DNA from: a virus
DNA length: 20,767 nt
Strand: one strand, 5' to 3'
IMG/VR virus record: IMGVR_UViG_3300025109_000084
Span: 1 to 20,767 of that record
A program made the translations under genes and the position numbers. Under the pieces are notes generated by a model that did no database searches, was not told where the DNA came from, and saw only the letters and a list, made by a program, of their open reading frames with translations. Shown in pieces: positions 1 through 11,695 of the stretch (its first letter is position 1; every line of letters starts with the position of its first letter).

Positions 1-204
1 GAACTTGAAGCCGTTTTGGGAGAAGAGATGTCACCCGCAGAGCTTGAAGCCGCGAAGCATGAAGAGTGCAGAGGCGCGATAGACTATGAAAAATGCATGG
101 GCCATCCAGCCGGCCCCCCACGCTCCAGTCACAGAGGTGGCGCCCCACAAGGCGGCGACCACCCTTCCCGCAGCGACCCTCGCTTCGACTGGTACGAGGA
201 ATAA
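1..204 (+). CDS. Partial small protein with N-terminal helix module (3' end of gene)
   Basis: The reading frame is open from the first base, so the gene begins upstream of the window; the 67 visible residues end at TAA 202-204. The visible N-terminus, ELEAVLGEE, nearly copies residues 15-23 of the next gene (ELEAVLDEG), and the DNA matches almost base for base. The missing start is therefore probably the same lysine-rich helix. The L-G-E in this stretch fits the L-x-E site of T4-type prohead proteases. The remainder is Gly/Pro/His/Arg-rich and probably disordered, ending in an aromatic-acidic tail (FDWYEE). It lies in the same frame as the next gene, only three bases away, as expected for a tandem duplication. 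An internal TTG (16) or ATG (28) start is possible but would discard the shared module. Function unknown; an internal head protein is an inference. Confidence 0.55.
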   Translation, partial: ELEAVLGEEMSPAELEAAKHEECRGAIDYEKCMGHPAGPPRSSHRGGAPQGGDHPSRSDPRFDWYEE

Positions 205-207
205 ATA

Positions 208-564
208 ATGAAGATTACAAAATCCCAACTTAAAGAGATTATTAAGGAAGAGCTTGAAGCCGTTCTTGATGAAGGGCTTTGGTCCGATGTCAAAGCTGGT
301 CTGGGAATAGGCGATGAATTGGAAAAACGACTCGCAGCTAACCCGAACTATGGTAGTTCAAAGGCAGAGATAAGGCGTCAAAAGGAGCCGGCCCTGGTCC
401 GAAATCTCCATGCCCAGTGGAGTAACGCTAAGAACGTCGACGGCGAAAAGCGAGCAATTGAAGCACTCCAGGACTTAGAATTGACAAATCCTGACTCGAT
501 AGAGCGCCGCGACCAATTGGTGAGAGATCTGCCAACTCTAGGCAAGCAGCGACACGCGGAATGA
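208..564 (+). CDS. Small helix-module protein, possible prohead-targeted protein
   Basis: A 118-residue charged protein of unknown function. The ATG at 208 is preceded by GAGGA at 196-200 with 7-base spacing. It begins MKITKSQLKEIIKEELEAVL, a predicted amphipathic helix, directly followed by D-E-G-L-W. The L20-D21-E22 triplet matches the L/I-x-E specificity of T4 prohead proteases, and the protease gene starts 13 bases downstream. The same design recurs in the genes on either side (1-204 and 1176-1586). The remainder is Lys/Arg/Glu-rich and probably helical, without cysteines or membrane segments. By analogy with T4 internal proteins, whose short N-terminal capsid-targeting sequences are removed by gp21, I infer a protein packed into the prohead. 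No homology to a named family is recognised. Confidence 0.6.
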   Translation: MKITKSQLKEIIKEELEAVLDEGLWSDVKAGLGIGDELEKRLAANPNYGSSKAEIRRQKEPALVRNLHAQWSNAKNVDGEKRAIEALQDLELTNPDSIERRDQLVRDLPTLGKQRHAE

Positions 565-577
565 AGGGGAAATAGTA

Positions 578-1183
578 ATGCCTAAACAACTTTTACGAGA
601 ATATTATGCACTGTGCGAAGGCGGCGTCTGCCAGGATCTTCTCAACGAAGAAGAGAAAAGACAAGTCGCCGCGGGCGAATGCATGTACTTAACTGGAAAA
701 CTGCAGGAAGGCGGCGTTGTTAATGGAAATCAGCGGATGTATCCTCCTCAAGTTATCATGAGAGAAGTTAAAAACTATCAGAAGCTTGTTCAGGAAAATC
801 GCGCTTTAGGTGAATTAGATCATCCAGAAAATAATGTGATCTCGCTGGAGAAAGTTTCGCACCGCGTAACTGCCATCTGGATGGAAGGTAATGTTGCGAT
901 GGGGAAAGTCCAAGTTCTTAACACACCTGCCGGCAAAATTCTACAAGAATTGGTTAATGGCGGATGCAAGATGGGAATTTCTTCTCGCGGGATGGGTTCT
1001 GTTCGCGAAGACAAAGGCACTACAATCGTGGAAGATGACTTTCAGTTAATTTGTTTTGACTTTGTTTCTGAGCCATCAACTCCTGGTGCATTTATGATGC
1101 AAGAATCAAAAGACTTTAAGAACAAAGTATTTACCAAGGCAGATCGTATCAATAGATTAATTAATGAGGTTATAGATGAATAA
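578..1183 (+). CDS. 21: Prohead maturation protease, T4 gp21-like
   Basis: A 201-residue serine protease of the T4 prohead type, whose fold is shared with herpesvirus assemblins. In such phages it sits inside the prohead and cleaves scaffold, capsid and internal proteins after L/I-x-E, allowing expansion and DNA packaging. Family landmarks appear in order: GELDHP with His82, GISSRGMGSV with the candidate nucleophile Ser135 or Ser136, and FDFVSEPSTPGAFM with Asp161. Assigning the triad to these residues is inference from the family pattern. The length is close to T4 gp21 (about 210 residues). The ATG at 578 follows AAGGGGA with 7-base spacing. Early L-R-E (6-8) and L-N-E (22-24) triplets could be self-cleavage sites. 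The stop overlaps the next start by 8 bases, suggesting coupled translation. In T4 the scaffold gene follows directly; here about 7 kb intervenes. Confidence 0.9.
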   Translation: MPKQLLREYYALCEGGVCQDLLNEEEKRQVAAGECMYLTGKLQEGGVVNGNQRMYPPQVIMREVKNYQKLVQENRALGELDHPENNVISLEKVSHRVTAIWMEGNVAMGKVQVLNTPAGKILQELVNGGCKMGISSRGMGSVREDKGTTIVEDDFQLICFDFVSEPSTPGAFMMQESKDFKNKVFTKADRINRLINEVIDE

Positions 1184-1586
1184 GGCAGATTTAAAAAAGA
1201 TTATTAAGCCAGTTGTGAAAGAGTGCATTCATGAGGTTCTCTTGGAAGAGGGCCTTTTGTCTAATGTAGTAGCCGAAGTTGCAAAAGGCATGCAAGGAAA
1301 TCTTATGGTTGAGGCCCCACGCCCGGCGCCAGTAGAGCGAACACACCGCGATACTTCTAACAACACAAGAAAGAAGATCAACGAGCATCGCGCAAAGTTG
1401 ATGAGTTCAATTGACAAAGATGCTTATAATGGGGTTAATTTGTTTGAGGGCACAGAGCCGCTGACAAGCCGCGAGGCCTCGACACCTAAAGCCGGAACTA
1501 TCGATTTAGGAAACCCAGAGGACTCGGGCGTCGATATTTCGTCTTTAATGGGCCCATCAACCCAAATTTGGAAGGCGATGAAGTAG
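1176..1586 (+). CDS. Helix-module protein overlapping the protease gene, possible internal head protein
   Basis: A 136-residue protein of unknown function. Its ATG at 1176 lies inside the last codons of the protease gene (8-base overlap), so translation is probably coupled; no separate strong ribosome site is evident. The N-terminus MNKADLKKIIKPVVKECIHE continues VLLEEGLLSNV, the same pattern as the gene at 208: a short Lys-rich amphipathic helix, then L-x-E (L23-E24-E25) followed by Gly-Leu. The middle is polar and rich in Pro/Arg/Thr, probably disordered. The C-terminus contains a GVDISSLMGPSTQIWKAMK-type tail that might be a binding peptide. No enzyme motif or membrane segment is visible. 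Overlap with the protease plus the shared module suggests co-assembly in the prohead; this is inferred, not shown. Confidence 0.65.
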   Translation: MNKADLKKIIKPVVKECIHEVLLEEGLLSNVVAEVAKGMQGNLMVEAPRPAPVERTHRDTSNNTRKKINEHRAKLMSSIDKDAYNGVNLFEGTEPLTSREASTPKAGTIDLGNPEDSGVDISSLMGPSTQIWKAMK

Positions 1587-1592
1587 GAAAAG

Positions 1593-1838
1593 ATGGCCAA
1601 TAAAATAAATGTAATTGTTAGAGCAAGAGAATGTAAAAATAATAATGAACGCTTGATACGTAAATTTTGCAAGAAAGTTAAAAAAGAACGCATCATTGAA
1701 CAAGTTAGAGATCGAAAAAGATACAAAAAACCTTCTGTTGTAAAAAAGGAAAAGCGTATACGGGCTCAACGGACGCGTCAACGAGAAGCGTTAAAAAAAC
1801 AAAGAGCAATAGAAAGGCGCAATAGAAACAGAAAGTGA
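1593..1838 (+). CDS. rpsU-like: Ribosomal protein bS21-like protein, phage-encoded
   Basis: An 81-residue, very basic protein. From memory it lines up with bacterial bS21 along most of its length: the beta-strand start INVIVRARE, then KFCKKVKKERIIEQVRDRKR resembling [20 protein letters not shown], then YKKP matching the family YEKPT element, then a long Lys/Arg helix. bS21 is a small-subunit protein near the 16S 3' end that promotes initiation at SD sites, and it is among the ribosomal proteins most often carried by phages. The phage copy may enter host ribosomes and bias initiation to phage mRNAs; that role is inference. The ATG at 1593 is 6 bases after the previous stop, with only a weak upstream AGGAAA. 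Its location in a late structural operon is unusual. The alternative is a generic basic nucleic-acid-binding or packaged protein. Confidence 0.72.
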   Translation: MANKINVIVRARECKNNNERLIRKFCKKVKKERIIEQVRDRKRYKKPSVVKKEKRIRAQRTRQREALKKQRAIERRNRNRK

Positions 1839-1879: not shown

Positions 1880-2305
1880 ATGGGTGAGTACAGTTGGAGA
1901 ATAGAGCCAGGACTAAATAACGTTGGCTCCTATCAAGTAAGTGGTAAACCATATGCGACAGGAAGCATCGATGCCAAGCATGGCCTTCGTCCAGGCGGTT
2001 TTGAAATTGTATTTCCCTATGTGGCCAGATGGTTTAAGGTTATGAATTACGATACCTCAAATTCTTGCAAAGTTGCTTTTTCTGTAAGCGGAATGACTGG
2101 TTCTAGTAATTATTTTACCGTTCCAATAGCAGATGCTGACGCGAACGGCGCCGGCGACAGTGGTGTGTTAGAACTAAAAGTATCTTCTATTTGGGTGTCG
2201 GGATCAACAAACGTTGATGTTGTTGCGGGTCTAACATGGATTCCGGCCGTGCGCACAGCCACTGCAGATGGTACTAATTGGTCAGGCTCTAGCGGGGTCG
2301 GTTAA
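1880..2305 (+). CDS. Putative virion structural protein, beta-rich
   Basis: A 141-residue protein. I choose the ATG at 1880 because AGGAG (1867-1871) sits 8 bases upstream; an in-frame TTG two codons earlier would bring the start too close to that site. It begins MGEYSWRIEPG and contains YATGSIDA, FEIVFPYVARWFKVMNYDT and SGSTNVDVVAGLTWIP. Alternating hydrophobic strands and Gly/Ser turns suggest a beta-sandwich. I have a general recollection of similar short proteins next to fibre genes in marine phages but cannot name a family. Position at the head of the appendage cassette, behind a candidate late promoter, supports a virion role such as decoration or fibre attachment. It has one cysteine and no signal peptide. 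Gene identity is solid; function is uncertain. Confidence 0.75.
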   Translation: MGEYSWRIEPGLNNVGSYQVSGKPYATGSIDAKHGLRPGGFEIVFPYVARWFKVMNYDTSNSCKVAFSVSGMTGSSNYFTVPIADADANGAGDSGVLELKVSSIWVSGSTNVDVVAGLTWIPAVRTATADGTNWSGSSGVG

Positions 2306-2306
2306 C

Positions 2307-4118
2307 ATGGCGCAGTTTGCCTGGGCATATATTGATTGCGAGTCCGCGAAGGGATCTGGTTCGTTTGGGCCCCCCAATTCGCTGCAGTTTGTAACAGAAT
2401 CCAGTAACGGGGCTACAACTGGTTCCGCTTATTTGACTTATCACACAGCATCGATGTATGGTCATCCACCGTCAACTTTGTTCTTGTCAGGCAATCTTAT
2501 TGTCACTGGAGCAATTAGTGCTAGCACTTTCCATTGGCAGGATATTACGCATATAGATGCCACTGGTTCGACCTTTTTTGGTGATGATCAAACAGATTCA
2601 CACGTCCGCAGTGGAAGTATGTATCTGCATAAAAATAGCAATTGGCCACCAGTATACAGATTTGATGTTGTTAATGCTAGGGCGACTATGTTGTCTGATA
2701 TTTCTTCCTCACTAAAAGGAATGTTTAAGGGCGCCGTCATCACAGAGGGATATCTTCATGTGTCCGGAACTTCTATTTTAGGAAATGAATCCGCTGACAA
2801 TATTGTAGCGAACGCTAAACTAACTGCTTCGCAGGGCGGCTATTTCGCCGATAGAGTCGGCATCGGAACAAATTCCCCCGGCAATCCTTTAGATGTGCAG
2901 ATGAACGAGTCTGGTTATCTAGCACGCTTCTACGCGCTAGCCGGTAACCAAAACGCTGGAATATTAATTCGCAACGGCGACCGAGGATACGGGTTTAATG
3001 TTCGCCACGATCTATCTGAAACATTCGTTATTAATGAAGTTATAGGCGAAACAGATATCATGGCATTTGACGTGAATGGCAAAGTCGGCATTGGAACGAA
3101 TAGCCCAACACACAAACTCACGGTCGTTGGTGGCGTTTCTGGCTCCGGCGTACTACAAGCAGTTGGAAATGCAACTGTTGTCGGTACTTTAAATGTTTCT
3201 GGTGCGGCAACAATGGCTCACCATGTTGTACCCAAAGTTAATGATTCAAAAAATCTAGGCTCTAGCGATAAGAAGTGGTCAAACATTTATTGTACGACTC
3301 TATATGCCACCACTATTGCTGGTGGCTCACCGCTGCATCTATCCGCTTCTAGCATTACTTTAACAGGGAGTGTCACATTTTCGGGCAGCGGTACCGTGCT
3401 TTCTTCTACAGGTTCTTATTATTCTGGCTCCGGAGGTTCAACAGAGATTTCTGGTGGCCATATCATTATTACCGGCTCAAGCCCTGCCATAACCATTGCG
3501 GCTGGTGATCTTATCGTATCAGGAAGTTCTTATTTAGGAGATGCCGCGGCAGATGATACAGTGATAACTAGTCGATTAACAGCTTCTCAAGGTATGTTTG
3601 TAAATGCAGACAGTCTTCCGATTCAAATAGGCGCTAGCGCTGATTTACAATTCGTTCATAATGGCACAAATAGTATAATTGCTAACAAAACCGGCCATCT
3701 TCTTATTGACAGTCAAGCAATCGGAAAGCATATTCGACTTGATCTGGGAGCTGACGATGCCACCACCGCTATTCATGTGAGAAATAACAGTGGTGCGACC
3801 AAGCTTTCAATTAATGCGGCTGGCGCCGTATCTGGATCGAGCACCCTTCATGCGGTGGGGGCAACCACGTTCGGAAGTACGCTATCTACAACTGGCTCAA
3901 TTACTGCCGGTAGCCATATTTTGCCATTCGCCGATAATTCTTATAATCTAGGTTCGGGCGCCCGGCGCTGGGCTAACTTGTATACCGGCGACTTGCATCT
4001 CAAAAATGATCGCGGAGATTGGACAATTGTTGAGGAAGAAGATTTTTTGTGTGTAATTAATAATAAGACAGGTAAGAAATTTAAAATGAACCTGATCCCC
4101 TTGGAGGATGATGAATAA
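2307..4118 (+). CDS. Tail-fibre-like repetitive protein
   Basis: A 603-residue fibre-type protein. The ATG at 2307 lies one base after the previous stop and the upstream GGGG is a modest ribosome site; the frame is open 13 codons further, but those overlap the previous gene. Gly/Ser/Thr/Ala-rich repeats fill it. Two VGIGTNSP elements (about residues 184 and 260), typical of trimeric phage fibres, are present. Two NLG-(S)-x-x-(K/R)(K/R)W-(S/A)N-(I/L)Y elements follow, from about 308 and 539. Residues about 539-603 form a distinct C-terminal module with NDRGDWTIVEEEDF and NNKTGKKFK that reappears in the 96-residue protein at 11405. A repeat VSGSS-x-L-x-x-VGA-x-TFGSTL is shared with the next gene. 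No S74 chaperone or enzyme domain is seen. Likely a long fibre or fibre-base protein; receptor binding is inferred. Confidence 0.75.
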   Translation: MAQFAWAYIDCESAKGSGSFGPPNSLQFVTESSNGATTGSAYLTYHTASMYGHPPSTLFLSGNLIVTGAISASTFHWQDITHIDATGSTFFGDDQTDSHVRSGSMYLHKNSNWPPVYRFDVVNARATMLSDISSSLKGMFKGAVITEGYLHVSGTSILGNESADNIVANAKLTASQGGYFADRVGIGTNSPGNPLDVQMNESGYLARFYALAGNQNAGILIRNGDRGYGFNVRHDLSETFVINEVIGETDIMAFDVNGKVGIGTNSPTHKLTVVGGVSGSGVLQAVGNATVVGTLNVSGAATMAHHVVPKVNDSKNLGSSDKKWSNIYCTTLYATTIAGGSPLHLSASSITLTGSVTFSGSGTVLSSTGSYYSGSGGSTEISGGHIIITGSSPAITIAAGDLIVSGSSYLGDAAADDTVITSRLTASQGMFVNADSLPIQIGASADLQFVHNGTNSIIANKTGHLLIDSQAIGKHIRLDLGADDATTAIHVRNNSGATKLSINAAGAVSGSSTLHAVGATTFGSTLSTTGSITAGSHILPFADNSYNLGSGARRWANLYTGDLHLKNDRGDWTIVEEEDFLCVINNKTGKKFKMNLIPLEDDE

Positions 4119-8226: not shown

Positions 8227-9462
8227 ATGTCAAATTTACTAAAGGAGGCTATTGTTGATGCAAAAGCTCTTCGCGAAGCTGCACTCAAAAGCGCAGAAAC
8301 AACAATTGTTGAAAAGTATTCTGACGAAGTTCGCAAAACTTTAGAGAACATCTTAGAACAAGATGAATTAGGCCTCGCCGGCGATCTTGGCGCCGATCTT
8401 GGTGGCGATCTTGGCGCCGATCTTGGTGGCGATCTTGGTGGCGATCTTGGTGGCGATCTTGGAATGGAAGATCCCGGAGCCTTTGGGCCCGAAGCTGAAC
8501 TGGCTGAGACCGAAGAAGTATTAGAGGATGTCCCGCTTGCAGCCGCTGATGATCTCAGCGATGAAGAGGGAGAAGGCCTGCGACACGCCAATCTTCCCGC
8601 AACCGGCGAACCTGTGGATATTGAAGTAGACATTAATTTAGCCGCATTGCAGGAAGCAATTAGCGAACTCCAAACACAAATGGATGAATCACAAGAACTG
8701 GAGATCACCGAAGAAGAAATGGTCGAGATCCTTTCTGAGGCTCCCGCTTCTGCTGCTGCAGCCTCGCAAGAAGCCGGCGAAATGGGTGATCCTTCGACTG
8801 AGGATGATCCCTCCGAAGGCGAAGCTTCTGAGGAAGCTGCCGATGTAGAGGCCACAGAAGAATTAACTAACGAAGACCTCGACCTCGATGAAATCACCGC
8901 AGCCGTGCAGGAAGTCCTTGATGTTGATATGGGCGCCTCGCTTTCAGGCTGGGCCGGCCGATCATCCTACGATGTAAAACATCAGATGGAAATGGAAATG
9001 GCCCATCGCCGCAGTACAGATTTACAAACAGATTTAGAAACTTTGAAGAAAGCTCAAGAAGAAGTTGTTTTTGAAAACAAGCAGCTTAAAAATGAGCTTT
9101 CACAATATAAACAAGCAACAAATGAGCTTAAAGAAGGTTTGCAAGATGTTAACCTTTCTAATGCTCGCTTGTTATACACGAACCGTGTATTGAGAAATAT
9201 CTCCTTAAATGAGCGACAAAAGGAAACGATTGTCGAAGCTATTTCACGTGCTGGTTCAGTTACAGAAGCAAGAACAATCTTTGATACGCTTCAAAGCACA
9301 GCGCAGGCTCGACCTAAAAAGAGCCCACAATCGCTGAGCGAGGCATTAGGAAACCGTTCCTCCGCAACTGTAATCCGCGCTTCTCGTCCCCGACATGAGA
9401 GAAGTACCTCCGAGGCTGATCCTTTCCAGGATCGCATGAAGAGATTAGCGGGAATTAAATAG
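8227..9462 (+). CDS. 22: Prohead core scaffold protein, T4 gp22-like
   Basis: A 411-residue, strongly acidic protein directly upstream of the capsid gene, the T4 gp22 position. TAGGAG lies 9 bases before the ATG. In order it has a helical N-terminus (1-48), a run of seven D-L-G-(G/A/M) repeats (52-79), an Asp/Glu/Ala-rich low-complexity middle (to about 235), a coiled-coil-like stretch (about 250-310: LQTDLETLKKAQEEVVFENK), and a conserved-looking block NLSNARLLYTNRVLRNISLN followed by ERQKETIVEAISRAGSVTEA. That block resembles the helical region shared by T4-like scaffold proteins as I recall them. The C-terminus is basic (FQDRMKRLAGIK), suitable for contacting the capsid shell. T4 gp22 is shorter (about 270 residues); the excess is the acidic repeat-bearing part. 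The scaffold would be degraded by the gp21-like protease during maturation. Confidence 0.78.
   Translation: MSNLLKEAIVDAKALREAALKSAETTIVEKYSDEVRKTLENILEQDELGLAGDLGADLGGDLGADLGGDLGGDLGGDLGMEDPGAFGPEAELAETEEVLEDVPLAAADDLSDEEGEGLRHANLPATGEPVDIEVDINLAALQEAISELQTQMDESQELEITEEEMVEILSEAPASAAAASQEAGEMGDPSTEDDPSEGEASEEAADVEATEELTNEDLDLDEITAAVQEVLDVDMGASLSGWAGRSSYDVKHQMEMEMAHRRSTDLQTDLETLKKAQEEVVFENKQLKNELSQYKQATNELKEGLQDVNLSNARLLYTNRVLRNISLNERQKETIVEAISRAGSVTEARTIFDTLQSTAQARPKKSPQSLSEALGNRSSATVIRASRPRHERSTSEADPFQDRMKRLAGIK
8380..8463 (+). repeat. 12-bp tandem repeat in the scaffold gene
   Basis: Seven 12-base units of the type GG(C)GATCTTGG(C/T) occupy 84 bases, arranged as two 24-base GGC/GCC pairs followed by three single units. 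They encode (G/A)DLG repeats. The length is a multiple of three, so unit gain or loss keeps the frame. This is consistent with slippage-prone expansion of an acidic linker. Confidence 0.85.
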
Positions 9463-9497: not shown

Positions 9498-11276
9498 ATG
9501 TCTGGTATTGTTGAAAGGTTAACGGAAGGTATCGTTAATCGTGATATGCGCACCGAAAGTCACGCACTTCTAGCGAAGTGGGAGCGCACAGGACTCTTAG
9601 AGGGTCTTGGAAGTGATCGTGAGAAGGGCACCATGTCCCGTCTCTTAGAAAATCAAGCTAAGGAGCTACTTCGTGAGAATAGCACAATGGCTGGTGGTGA
9701 TGTTGAAGGCTTCGCGGCCGTCGCATTCCCCATTGTTCGTCGTGTTTTCGCTGGCTTAATCGCTAACGATCTCGTGAGCGTGCAGCCCATGAGCCTCCCC
9801 TCGGGACTCATTTTCTTCCTTGACTTCACCATTTCTACCGATGGAGCTGGTCTCCCTCGTCTTGGTTATGGTGATCCGCAGGGTGATGAAGAGTCACTGT
9901 ATGGTGGCGGACGAGTGGCCAGCCAGATCACTGGCGGTGTGCTTCTCAGTGGAGTTAATGCCGAAGAAGGGCCTTATAACCTTAACAACGGTTATTCGTC
10001 TCCAACAGCTTCTGCTGCTTTGACGTTTACATTTGTTAGCTCAAGTACTTACAGTTCTAGCGCTGGTGATCTGCCCAGTCTTTGTCGCTTTGACGCCGAT
10101 CTGGAGTCGCAGTCTGGTATTGCTAGTGTTGCTGTTTATACAGCTGATACAAGTGGTCTTACTTTGTTCAACGCGGAAGACCTTGTTGCGCTCGTAATTA
10201 GTGGTTCCAATGGTAATGCCGGTATGGGCCGCGGCGAAGCGATCACCGGCTCTGTGGCCGATGGTGGAGCTGTTCAGCTTCGTCGTCTTACGCGCCTGAG
10301 TGGTTCTAGCCAGGATGTTGTATATATTGTAGTTGCGTCTTATGACGGTACGTTGTCTGCAGCTCAGTGCTCAAGCAGCATTGCTACCATTCAGAGTGGA
10401 ACAAACGTTTACTACCCACAGAAGGATGACCTTATTGCTGGTGGCGCTCTTGGTTCTGTTATTGGTGATACACCCTGGGGACTTGAGAATAACCAGAATA
10501 TCCCTGAGATCGATATCAAAGTCGATTCCGTGGCTATTACGGCGATGACCAAGAAGCTTAAGGCTAAGTGGACCCCTGAGTTAGGACAAGATCTTAACGC
10601 ATACCACAACCTTGATGCTGAGGTTGAGCTTACTAGTATTCTCTCTGAGCAGATTGCTCTTGAGATCGATCGTGAAATTCTTGAGGATCTCATGATGCAG
10701 GCAACTGCTGGTACTTACTACTGGTCTCGTTCTCCCGGTCTGTTCGTTAATCGTACATCCGGCGCCGAGATTGGCGCTAGCTCTGCTGCTCCTGATTTCA
10801 CAGGTACAGTGAGCGAGTGGTATGAGACTCTTGCTGAAACTATCAATGATGTTTCCGCACAGGTCCATCGTAAGACTCTTCGTGGTGGAGCTAACTTCGT
10901 TGTCTGCGGACCCGAGGTTGCTAACATCCTTGAGTTCACTGCTGGATTCCGTGCTAGTGTCACAGCTGATGACGAAACCGGTTCTATCGGCGCCGTTAAA
11001 GTTGGGTCTCTGAGTAAGAAGTTCGATGTTATTGTGGATCCTTATTTCCCCCGTAATGTTGTTCTTGTTGGTCGACGTGGTTCCTCTTTCCTTGAAAGTG
11101 GATATGTGTATGCACCTTATGTGCCGCTGCAGACCACGCCTACTATCTTTGGACCAGAGGACTTCGTGCCCCGTAAGGGAGTCATGACTCGTTATGGTAA
11201 GAAGATGGTTCGTCCTGATATGTACGGATTAGTTATCGTTCGCGGTCTAATCGGTGAGGCTGGCGCTACTAGCTAA
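9498..11276 (+). CDS. 23: Major capsid protein, T4 gp23-like (HK97 fold)
   Basis: A 592-residue capsid subunit. The start at 9498 follows a perfect SD. The N-terminal 60 residues are charged and helical and end in L58-R59-E60, then NSTMAGGDVEGF. By position and motif this should be the maturation cleavage site, as T4 gp23 is cut after Glu65. The mature part begins FAAVAFPIVRRVFAGLIAND then LVSVQPMSLPSG, matching the gp23 pattern of a (V/M)RR-x-x-P/F-x-L-I helix and VQPM-x-x-P(S/T)G. The C-terminal part has YVYAPYVPLQ and GVMTRYGKKMVRPDMYG, resembling the gp23 YCPYVPL and F-K-TRYG region. The Ser/Gly-rich region about 150-320 is probably the insertion domain; at 592 residues it is about 70 longer than T4 gp23. 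A strong terminator follows. Codon use appears richer in CGT/GGT than neighbours, as for a highly expressed gene. Confidence 0.92.
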   Translation: MSGIVERLTEGIVNRDMRTESHALLAKWERTGLLEGLGSDREKGTMSRLLENQAKELLRENSTMAGGDVEGFAAVAFPIVRRVFAGLIANDLVSVQPMSLPSGLIFFLDFTISTDGAGLPRLGYGDPQGDEESLYGGGRVASQITGGVLLSGVNAEEGPYNLNNGYSSPTASAALTFTFVSSSTYSSSAGDLPSLCRFDADLESQSGIASVAVYTADTSGLTLFNAEDLVALVISGSNGNAGMGRGEAITGSVADGGAVQLRRLTRLSGSSQDVVYIVVASYDGTLSAAQCSSSIATIQSGTNVYYPQKDDLIAGGALGSVIGDTPWGLENNQNIPEIDIKVDSVAITAMTKKLKAKWTPELGQDLNAYHNLDAEVELTSILSEQIALEIDREILEDLMMQATAGTYYWSRSPGLFVNRTSGAEIGASSAAPDFTGTVSEWYETLAETINDVSAQVHRKTLRGGANFVVCGPEVANILEFTAGFRASVTADDETGSIGAVKVGSLSKKFDVIVDPYFPRNVVLVGRRGSSFLESGYVYAPYVPLQTTPTIFGPEDFVPRKGVMTRYGKKMVRPDMYGLVIVRGLIGEAGATS

Positions 11277-11404: not shown

Positions 11405-11695
11405 ATGAGATTATCAGTAGGTAGAATTCGCAACTTGATAGAACAAATCACTCAGGAAACACTTATAAAGTATAACTTGGTACCAGCCGTAAATGGGGGC
11501 GCCGAACTGGGCACTAGCGCCAAAAGATATGCTAACATTTATTGCCAAGACTTAAATCTTGCTAATGAGCGCGGTGATTACACTGTGATTGAGGAAGAAG
11601 ATTATCTTGGCTTAAGAAATAACAAAACGAACAAACTTTACAAGTTTGTTCTTGAAGAAGTTGAAGCTGAGTCCGACAGCGCGGAGGGTAAATAA
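11405..11695 (+). CDS. Small fibre-module protein with N-terminal helix
   Basis: A 96-residue protein. The start at 11405 is fixed by GGAGG at 11393-11397; the upstream extension of the frame runs through the terminator and is not real. Residues 1-23 (MRLSVGRIRNLIEQITQETL) form a helix reminiscent of the helix modules at 208 and 1176. Residues 25-85 then copy the C-terminal module of the 603-residue fibre protein: a V-P/A element, LG-x-x-x-KR-Y-ANIY, N-E-RGDYTVIEEEDYLGL and RNNKTNKLYKF. The two modules match at roughly half or more of aligned positions by eye. It may therefore be an independent trimeric cap, an attachment adaptor, or a head fibre held by its N-terminal helix. The acidic tail EVEAESDSAEGK is probably disordered. 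It is separated from the capsid gene by a terminator and contiguous with the next gene. Confidence 0.75.
   Translation: MRLSVGRIRNLIEQITQETLIKYNLVPAVNGGAELGTSAKRYANIYCQDLNLANERGDYTVIEEEDYLGLRNNKTNKLYKFVLEEVEAESDSAEGK

Follow-up and report, generated by a model that had tools for sequence, protein, structure and literature searches.

Most proteins of marine T4-like phages are without known function or location, and a tag readable in the sequence would single out those which are packaged and probably injected. The locus discussed here raises this possibility. Do the genes around its prohead protease have a common N-terminal module ending in L-x-E, as an earlier note made from the sequence alone had claimed, and is this module a capsid-targeting sequence (CTS)? 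In T4, the protease gp21 cleaves after L/I-x-E, while in the internal protein IPIII, beginning MKTYQEFIAE, residues 4 and 7 target and residues 8 and 10 process (PMC9026906); with aspartate placed at the IPIII site, processing is blocked while targeting persists (PMC9026906). The criteria applied to a CTS were a short N-terminal segment (10-20 aa) on unrelated bodies, an ending in L/I-x-E, an S77 protease with its catalytic triad in the same phage, and the targeting residues (an aromatic residue in position 4 and F in position 7, followed by I/L-x-E). Further marks of a CTS are that it alone packages a foreign protein and that the virion protein has lost it; on these, tag swapping bears only indirectly.

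The locus and its genes

The window, by which we mean the whole stretch of DNA analysed, is a 20.8 kb piece of an uncultured T4-like phage. Its relevant features are as follows.

1..204, + strand: 3' part of a cut gene with a putative module remnant; frame open to the window start
208..564, + strand: 118-aa protein with a class A tag, body function unknown (tag HMM 46.8 bits; E=6.7e-14 in the window)
208..273, + strand: class A tag, residues 1-22, ending L20-D-E22 (basis: site statistics of the class A population)
578..1183, + strand: S77 prohead protease of the T4 gp21 type (PF03420, 3.8e-28; phrog_207, 4.6e-53)
1176..1586, + strand: 136-aa protein of a conserved family 3' of the protease, with a divergent class A N-terminus (74-member family; profile-profile match)
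1176..1247, + strand: module of the 1176 gene, residues 1-24, with invariant [LI]22-x-E24 (family alignment)
1593..1838, + strand: phage-encoded bS21 ribosomal protein, directly 3' of the 1176 gene (PF01165, 5.9e-8)
8227..9462, + strand: candidate prohead scaffold, immediately 5' of the capsid gene (14 L/I-x-E sites along its length)
9498..11276, + strand: Gp23-type major capsid protein, MCP (PF07068, 2.2e-72)
3' of the capsid gene: putative tail genes, read from ORFs without a family test

The protease satisfies the criterion set for it, as both the S77 profile and the H/S/D triad are present, the latter aligned with and conserved relative to T4 (H85/S140/D168). In the MCP, L58 and E60 are invariant across 13 sequences, the next residue being S, A, N or Q, at a position close to LTE65 of T4 gp23; a propeptide cut after L58-R-E60 is predicted, with cleavage inferred from the sequence. 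Neither the 208 protein nor the candidate scaffold found a match in Pfam or PHROG. The translation of the cut gene begins at the EL of "..IIKEEL", the window edge leaving only ELEAVLGE/E (here and below, a slash marks the end of a module), with L-G-E at nucleotides 16-24. This remnant is compatible with the tag module and we take the gene to be tag-bearing, although truncation by the window edge precludes an independent test.

Several observations on gene order may be recorded here. In the cultured relative Mel-JY01, an annotated S21 gene also sits just 3' of the protease. A hydrophobic conserved protein of about 100-120 aa (MELLTFILCAYGLTQILVYGK) is often found immediately 5' of the protease (L003, L009, L065 and others). 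In many relatives (L003, L008, L013, L065, L075 and others), protease and 1176 homologue are separated by the gene of a variable protein of ~230-900 aa that begins MSDWSSF..DKxxxDAWRxFLxE; it is absent from the window. The C-terminus of the protease itself (FTKADRINRLLNEVL) was considered as a tag copy and rejected, its profile score of 7.5 being at decoy level.

One tag on many bodies

The core of the class A tag is MKITKxQLKQIIxEE. The N-terminus of the 208 gene, MKITKSQLKEIIKEELEAVLDE/G, scored 46.8 bits against the tag HMM, while the highest score among 1003 N-termini of random viral contigs was 5.5. Our sample comprised 80 protease relatives, 79 loci from a blind tag scan across 2.9 million viral contigs, and pieces of four large records. 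In these protease-positive and tag-scanned marine T4-like contigs we noted 443 Met-starting class A matches, 394 of them unique, distributed over 326 distinct body clusters; the core motif occurred 226 times at N-termini of the tag phages and not once in random contigs. Conservation is highest at L8 (98%), I11 (93%), I12 (95%), E14 (98%) and E15 (95%), and drops beyond residue 16. Being restricted to residues 1-16, the core meets the criterion of a short N-terminal segment on unrelated bodies, and the claim of one tag on different bodies thus held on a much larger scale than that on which it was made.

The tag varies at third codon positions and hardly at all at second ones, and the DNA upstream is unconserved except for the ribosome-binding and start region; selection therefore acts on the protein sequence of the tag. 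Fusion proteins retain two or three tag modules, and in the near-identical phage L002 the 208 body comes after ..KEELETVLDE/GLWGDV within a longer fusion protein. None of the cultured phages checked contained a strong class A match, and the tag peptides were unmatched in the 5.39 million open-licence papers searched.

In the 1176 gene the tag has diverged. Its score of 8.5 bits with the tag HMM exceeds all 1003 nulls, and its 74-member family matched the tag in profile-profile comparison with a score of 19.0, decoys reaching at most 9.1. Within this family L6, P12, E20, E24 and G26 are invariant, the site reading [LI]22-x-E24, then E, S or D at 25, then G26. As E24 is invariant and residue 25 is not, a cut may fall after E24 and not immediately before GLLSNV, where the mature N-terminus had been placed; its exact position remains uncertain, and cleavage itself is inferred. 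For the 208 protein, GLWSDV is the predicted new N-terminus upon tag loss, again by inference. The earlier note had proposed five members in all. Membership held for the 208 gene and, in divergent form, for the 1176 gene, while the cut gene at 1-204 is merely consistent with it. The remaining two are not members: the 11405 gene scored 0.4 bits, with 42 of 1003 nulls higher, and the 12074 gene -3.3 bits, with 410 of 1003 higher. As a separate matter, the last ~45 residues of the protein encoded at 2268-4118 (NDRGDWTIVEEEDFLCVINNKTGKKFKM, window 4000-4118, + strand) reappear in the small 11405 gene (NERGDYTVIEEEDYLGLRNNKTNKLYKF, 11590-11695, + strand).

Selection for L/I-x-E behind the core

Over all class A members, [LI]-x-E was observed 235 times behind the core, relative to 122 in shuffles. 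To control for independence, the sample was reduced to a single representative of each family with related bodies (n=245 families). At residues 17-30 of these, 151 occurrences stood against 84.4 expected (z 9.5; 0 of 2000 column permutations), while the same test on the same families was null or negative for [LI]xD, [LI]xQ, [LI]xK, [VMF]xE, AxE and for spacings 1, 3 and 4. Among 1222 residue-pair tests at residues 17-30, L-x-E ranked first (z 10.5); at residues 40-53 of the same proteins it was null. G and N are over-represented immediately after the site's E. L/I-x-E is thus selected in a residue- and spacing-specific manner, and the L-x-E ending which the earlier note had described is real, exceeding chance by a wide margin in the 245 independent families. 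N-terminal enrichment of L/I-x-E in these phages generally is not specific on its own, as [LI]xK is raised too.

The position of the site floats between residues 17 and 25, and selection is therefore on the tripeptide and not on the helix register. The site starts at residues 16-24 in about 60% of class A members, in comparison to 5% in an equal-size downstream window, so that the criterion of an L/I-x-E ending is met at the population level and individually by about 60%. The other 40% or so lack an [LI]xE with its start in this range; it is possible that these use the invariant I12-x-E14 inside the core, or that they stay uncut.

A second tag and its exchange with the first

A second N-terminal class, class B (FENWRKFLNE), was present in some 60 proteins, with few exceptions among their first 30 residues. 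With class A-like genes removed, the pattern [WYF]xx[FYH][LI]xE was enriched 13.5-fold at N-termini in these phages, as against 0.6-fold in random contigs. Its spacing, aromatic-x-x-F-[LI]-x-E, is that of T4 IPIII. Class B thereby meets the criterion of the CTS targeting residues, which class A, whose core has no aromatic/F pair, does not.

Homologous bodies occur with different N-termini, as in L064 (MKVTKSQLKQIIKEELATISE/G) and L127 (MNKLFENWRKHLNE/G), or L215 (MKITKSKLREIIREEIQLITE/ATRW) and L116 (MIKLKSLIRESKLITE/ATRW); further swapped pairs are L202/L097, L202/L165 and L198/L038. The recurrent alternative N-terminus on bodies homologous to those of class A is FENWRKFLNE. As class B matches a proven T4 signal and class A replaces it on the same cargo, this exchange is the strongest indirect evidence on the function of class A, though packaging, and removal in the virion, remain inferred.

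Association with the prohead protease

Among tag-first records of at least 33 kb, 18 of 26 contained S77; of the 25 random contigs, 2 did (Fisher p=8e-6). The eight without it also lacked the MCP and portal, or were truncated inside one (G024, G039). This co-occurrence partly reflects lineage, i.e. shared T4-like ancestry. In nine records (G001, G003, G005, G019-G021, G025, G028, G030) the majority of tag genes sit upstream of portal and protease, at distances of up to about 20 kb. Exceptions include G016 and G017, in which many tag genes are far from the protease in distant clusters, as well as a class B cluster in G001 about 90-110 kb away from it. G016 has 22 class A matches; this 242 kb record also features two adjacent Gp23 capsid genes at 139350-142938.

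Comparison with known systems

Like the CTS of T4 IPIII and IPII, class A is, by inference, a short N-terminal propeptide that terminates in L/I-x-E, precedes divergent bodies and belongs to a phage encoding an S77 protease. It differs in being another, 15-residue helix without the aromatic and F residues, in its greater length (20-25 aa), and in numbering up to 22 matches per genome where T4 has a few cargos. We infer that class A works like the T4 CTS, and regard it as a new sequence variant which should not be filed as an IPIII-type family member. The scale on which it occurs is unusual.

The inner-head propeptides of phiKZ and SPN3US are likewise N-terminal, occur on ejected proteins and are removed by a relative of gp21 that cleaves behind x-x-E (PMC5694885), and two SPN3US paralogues have an identical 15-residue N-terminus (PMC5694885). 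Unlike class A, however, they mostly exceed 100 residues, end in A-x-E or S-x-E, and include no widely common short tag. In P1, the 30 N-terminal residues of DarB suffice to package a reporter (PMC9024508), yet the Dar proteins have no common consensus and no link to L/I-x-E. The cultured Flavobacterium phage Immuto (host Flavobacterium sp. LMO8) has the same head-region gene order, with head-region N-termini such as ..HFIAE/A (QQO92117), ..FLTE/N (QQO92111), ..KFLKE/S (QQO92119) and MKKSQLRQIIKEAL; in QQO92112 the predicted site is FLVE or ILKE. Its class A match is weak, and no virion data were found.

Proposed function and alternatives

We consider it very likely (roughly 0.85) that the tags are exchangeable capsid-targeting propeptides cut by the prohead protease. 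This reading is supported because the module occurs on unrelated bodies, L/I-x-E is selected, S77 is intact, tag genes cluster upstream of portal and protease, the MCP has its own L-x-E, and class B is exchanged with class A. All testable computational predictions were positive. Modularity, site selection, protease co-occurrence, gene clustering and tag swapping are shown; docking, enclosure, cleavage, packaging, cargo release and ejection are inferred, in the absence of virion proteomics or cleavage data. The amphipathic helix, whether class A or class B, would attach the new protein to the core of the prohead while the head is being built, and the S77 protease would then cleave behind the L/I-x-E that ends the module, releasing the cargo within the maturing head. 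The cargo would presumably leave with the DNA at ejection. Through the exchange of tags among cargos, and of cargos among tags, each phage would carry a set of packaged proteins. Points against this reading are the sites missing in about 40% of class A proteins, the distant tag genes of G016, G017 and G001, the continuous helix predicted (with low confidence) for the 1176 protein, and the lack of specificity in the general N-terminal enrichment of L/I-x-E.

Some of these points feed the alternatives. The helix may be an unremoved docking or oligomerisation tag of virion or head proteins, with L-x-E merely part of its surface. The AF2 model of the 1176 protein, in which the site lies within a continuous helix at residues 3-39 (low confidence, pLDDT 63), and the frequent want of a downstream site speak for this. 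We nevertheless think it unlikely: L-x-E floats over residues 17-25, is coupled at spacing 2 only, and accepts only L/I and E, and a floating, tightly coupled L/I-x-E is more readily explained by a protease site than by one fixed side of a helix. Still less probable is that the tag addresses another place, such as a membrane, replication compartment or tail, the link to the protease being shared T4-like ancestry. Some tag genes are indeed distant from head genes, and the S77 co-occurrence is partly one of lineage, but the selected L/I-x-E equals the gp21 consensus (PMC9026906), and the class with which class A is exchanged corresponds to the T4 CTS.

Two further explanations can be all but dismissed. 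Were the repeat a DNA or translation-start element copied before genes, one could point to codon differences that are lower within contigs (36%) than between them (46%), and to the common ribosome-binding site and start context; the variable third and near-invariant second codon positions, the unconserved bases farther upstream and the survival of tags inside fused proteins argue otherwise. Chance likeness of generic Lys/Glu-rich helices gains some plausibility from the low-complexity composition of the module, which BLAST filters probably mask, yet it is refuted by a score so far above the null maximum, and by 226 core motifs against none.

To return to capsid targeting, a bolder reading, for which we consider the odds balanced, jointly asserts that T4-like phages of the sea possess a system for loading effectors, with two or more interchangeable address tags; that recombination moves these among many cargos, sometimes several per polyprotein; that up to about 20 proteins per phage are head-loaded for injection, in a set predictable from sequence; and that the load includes kinase-like, NUDIX, acetyltransferase and cell-wall enzymes. 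A tag legible in the sequence would furnish candidates for host takeover or counter-defence in the hundreds, as well as new packaging signals with which to load proteins into phage heads.

Putative cargo

Most of the 120 class A proteins scanned for known domains had no match. Single proteins matched L,D-transpeptidase YkuD, peptidoglycan binding, GNAT acetyltransferase and DUF6321. The 20 class B proteins scanned gave matches to NUDIX, PGDYG, guanylate kinase, GNAT and kinase-like families, as well as a weak one to nucleotidyltransferase. These domains are compatible with delivery to the host, which is possible but not thereby proven. In several tagged proteins, the stretch after the site's E is Gly/Ala/Lys-rich and amphipathic (GILDRLKARASGVGTKIAG is an example); such stretches, found upstream of the protease in L025, L030, L043, L052 and L073, resemble membrane-active peptides.
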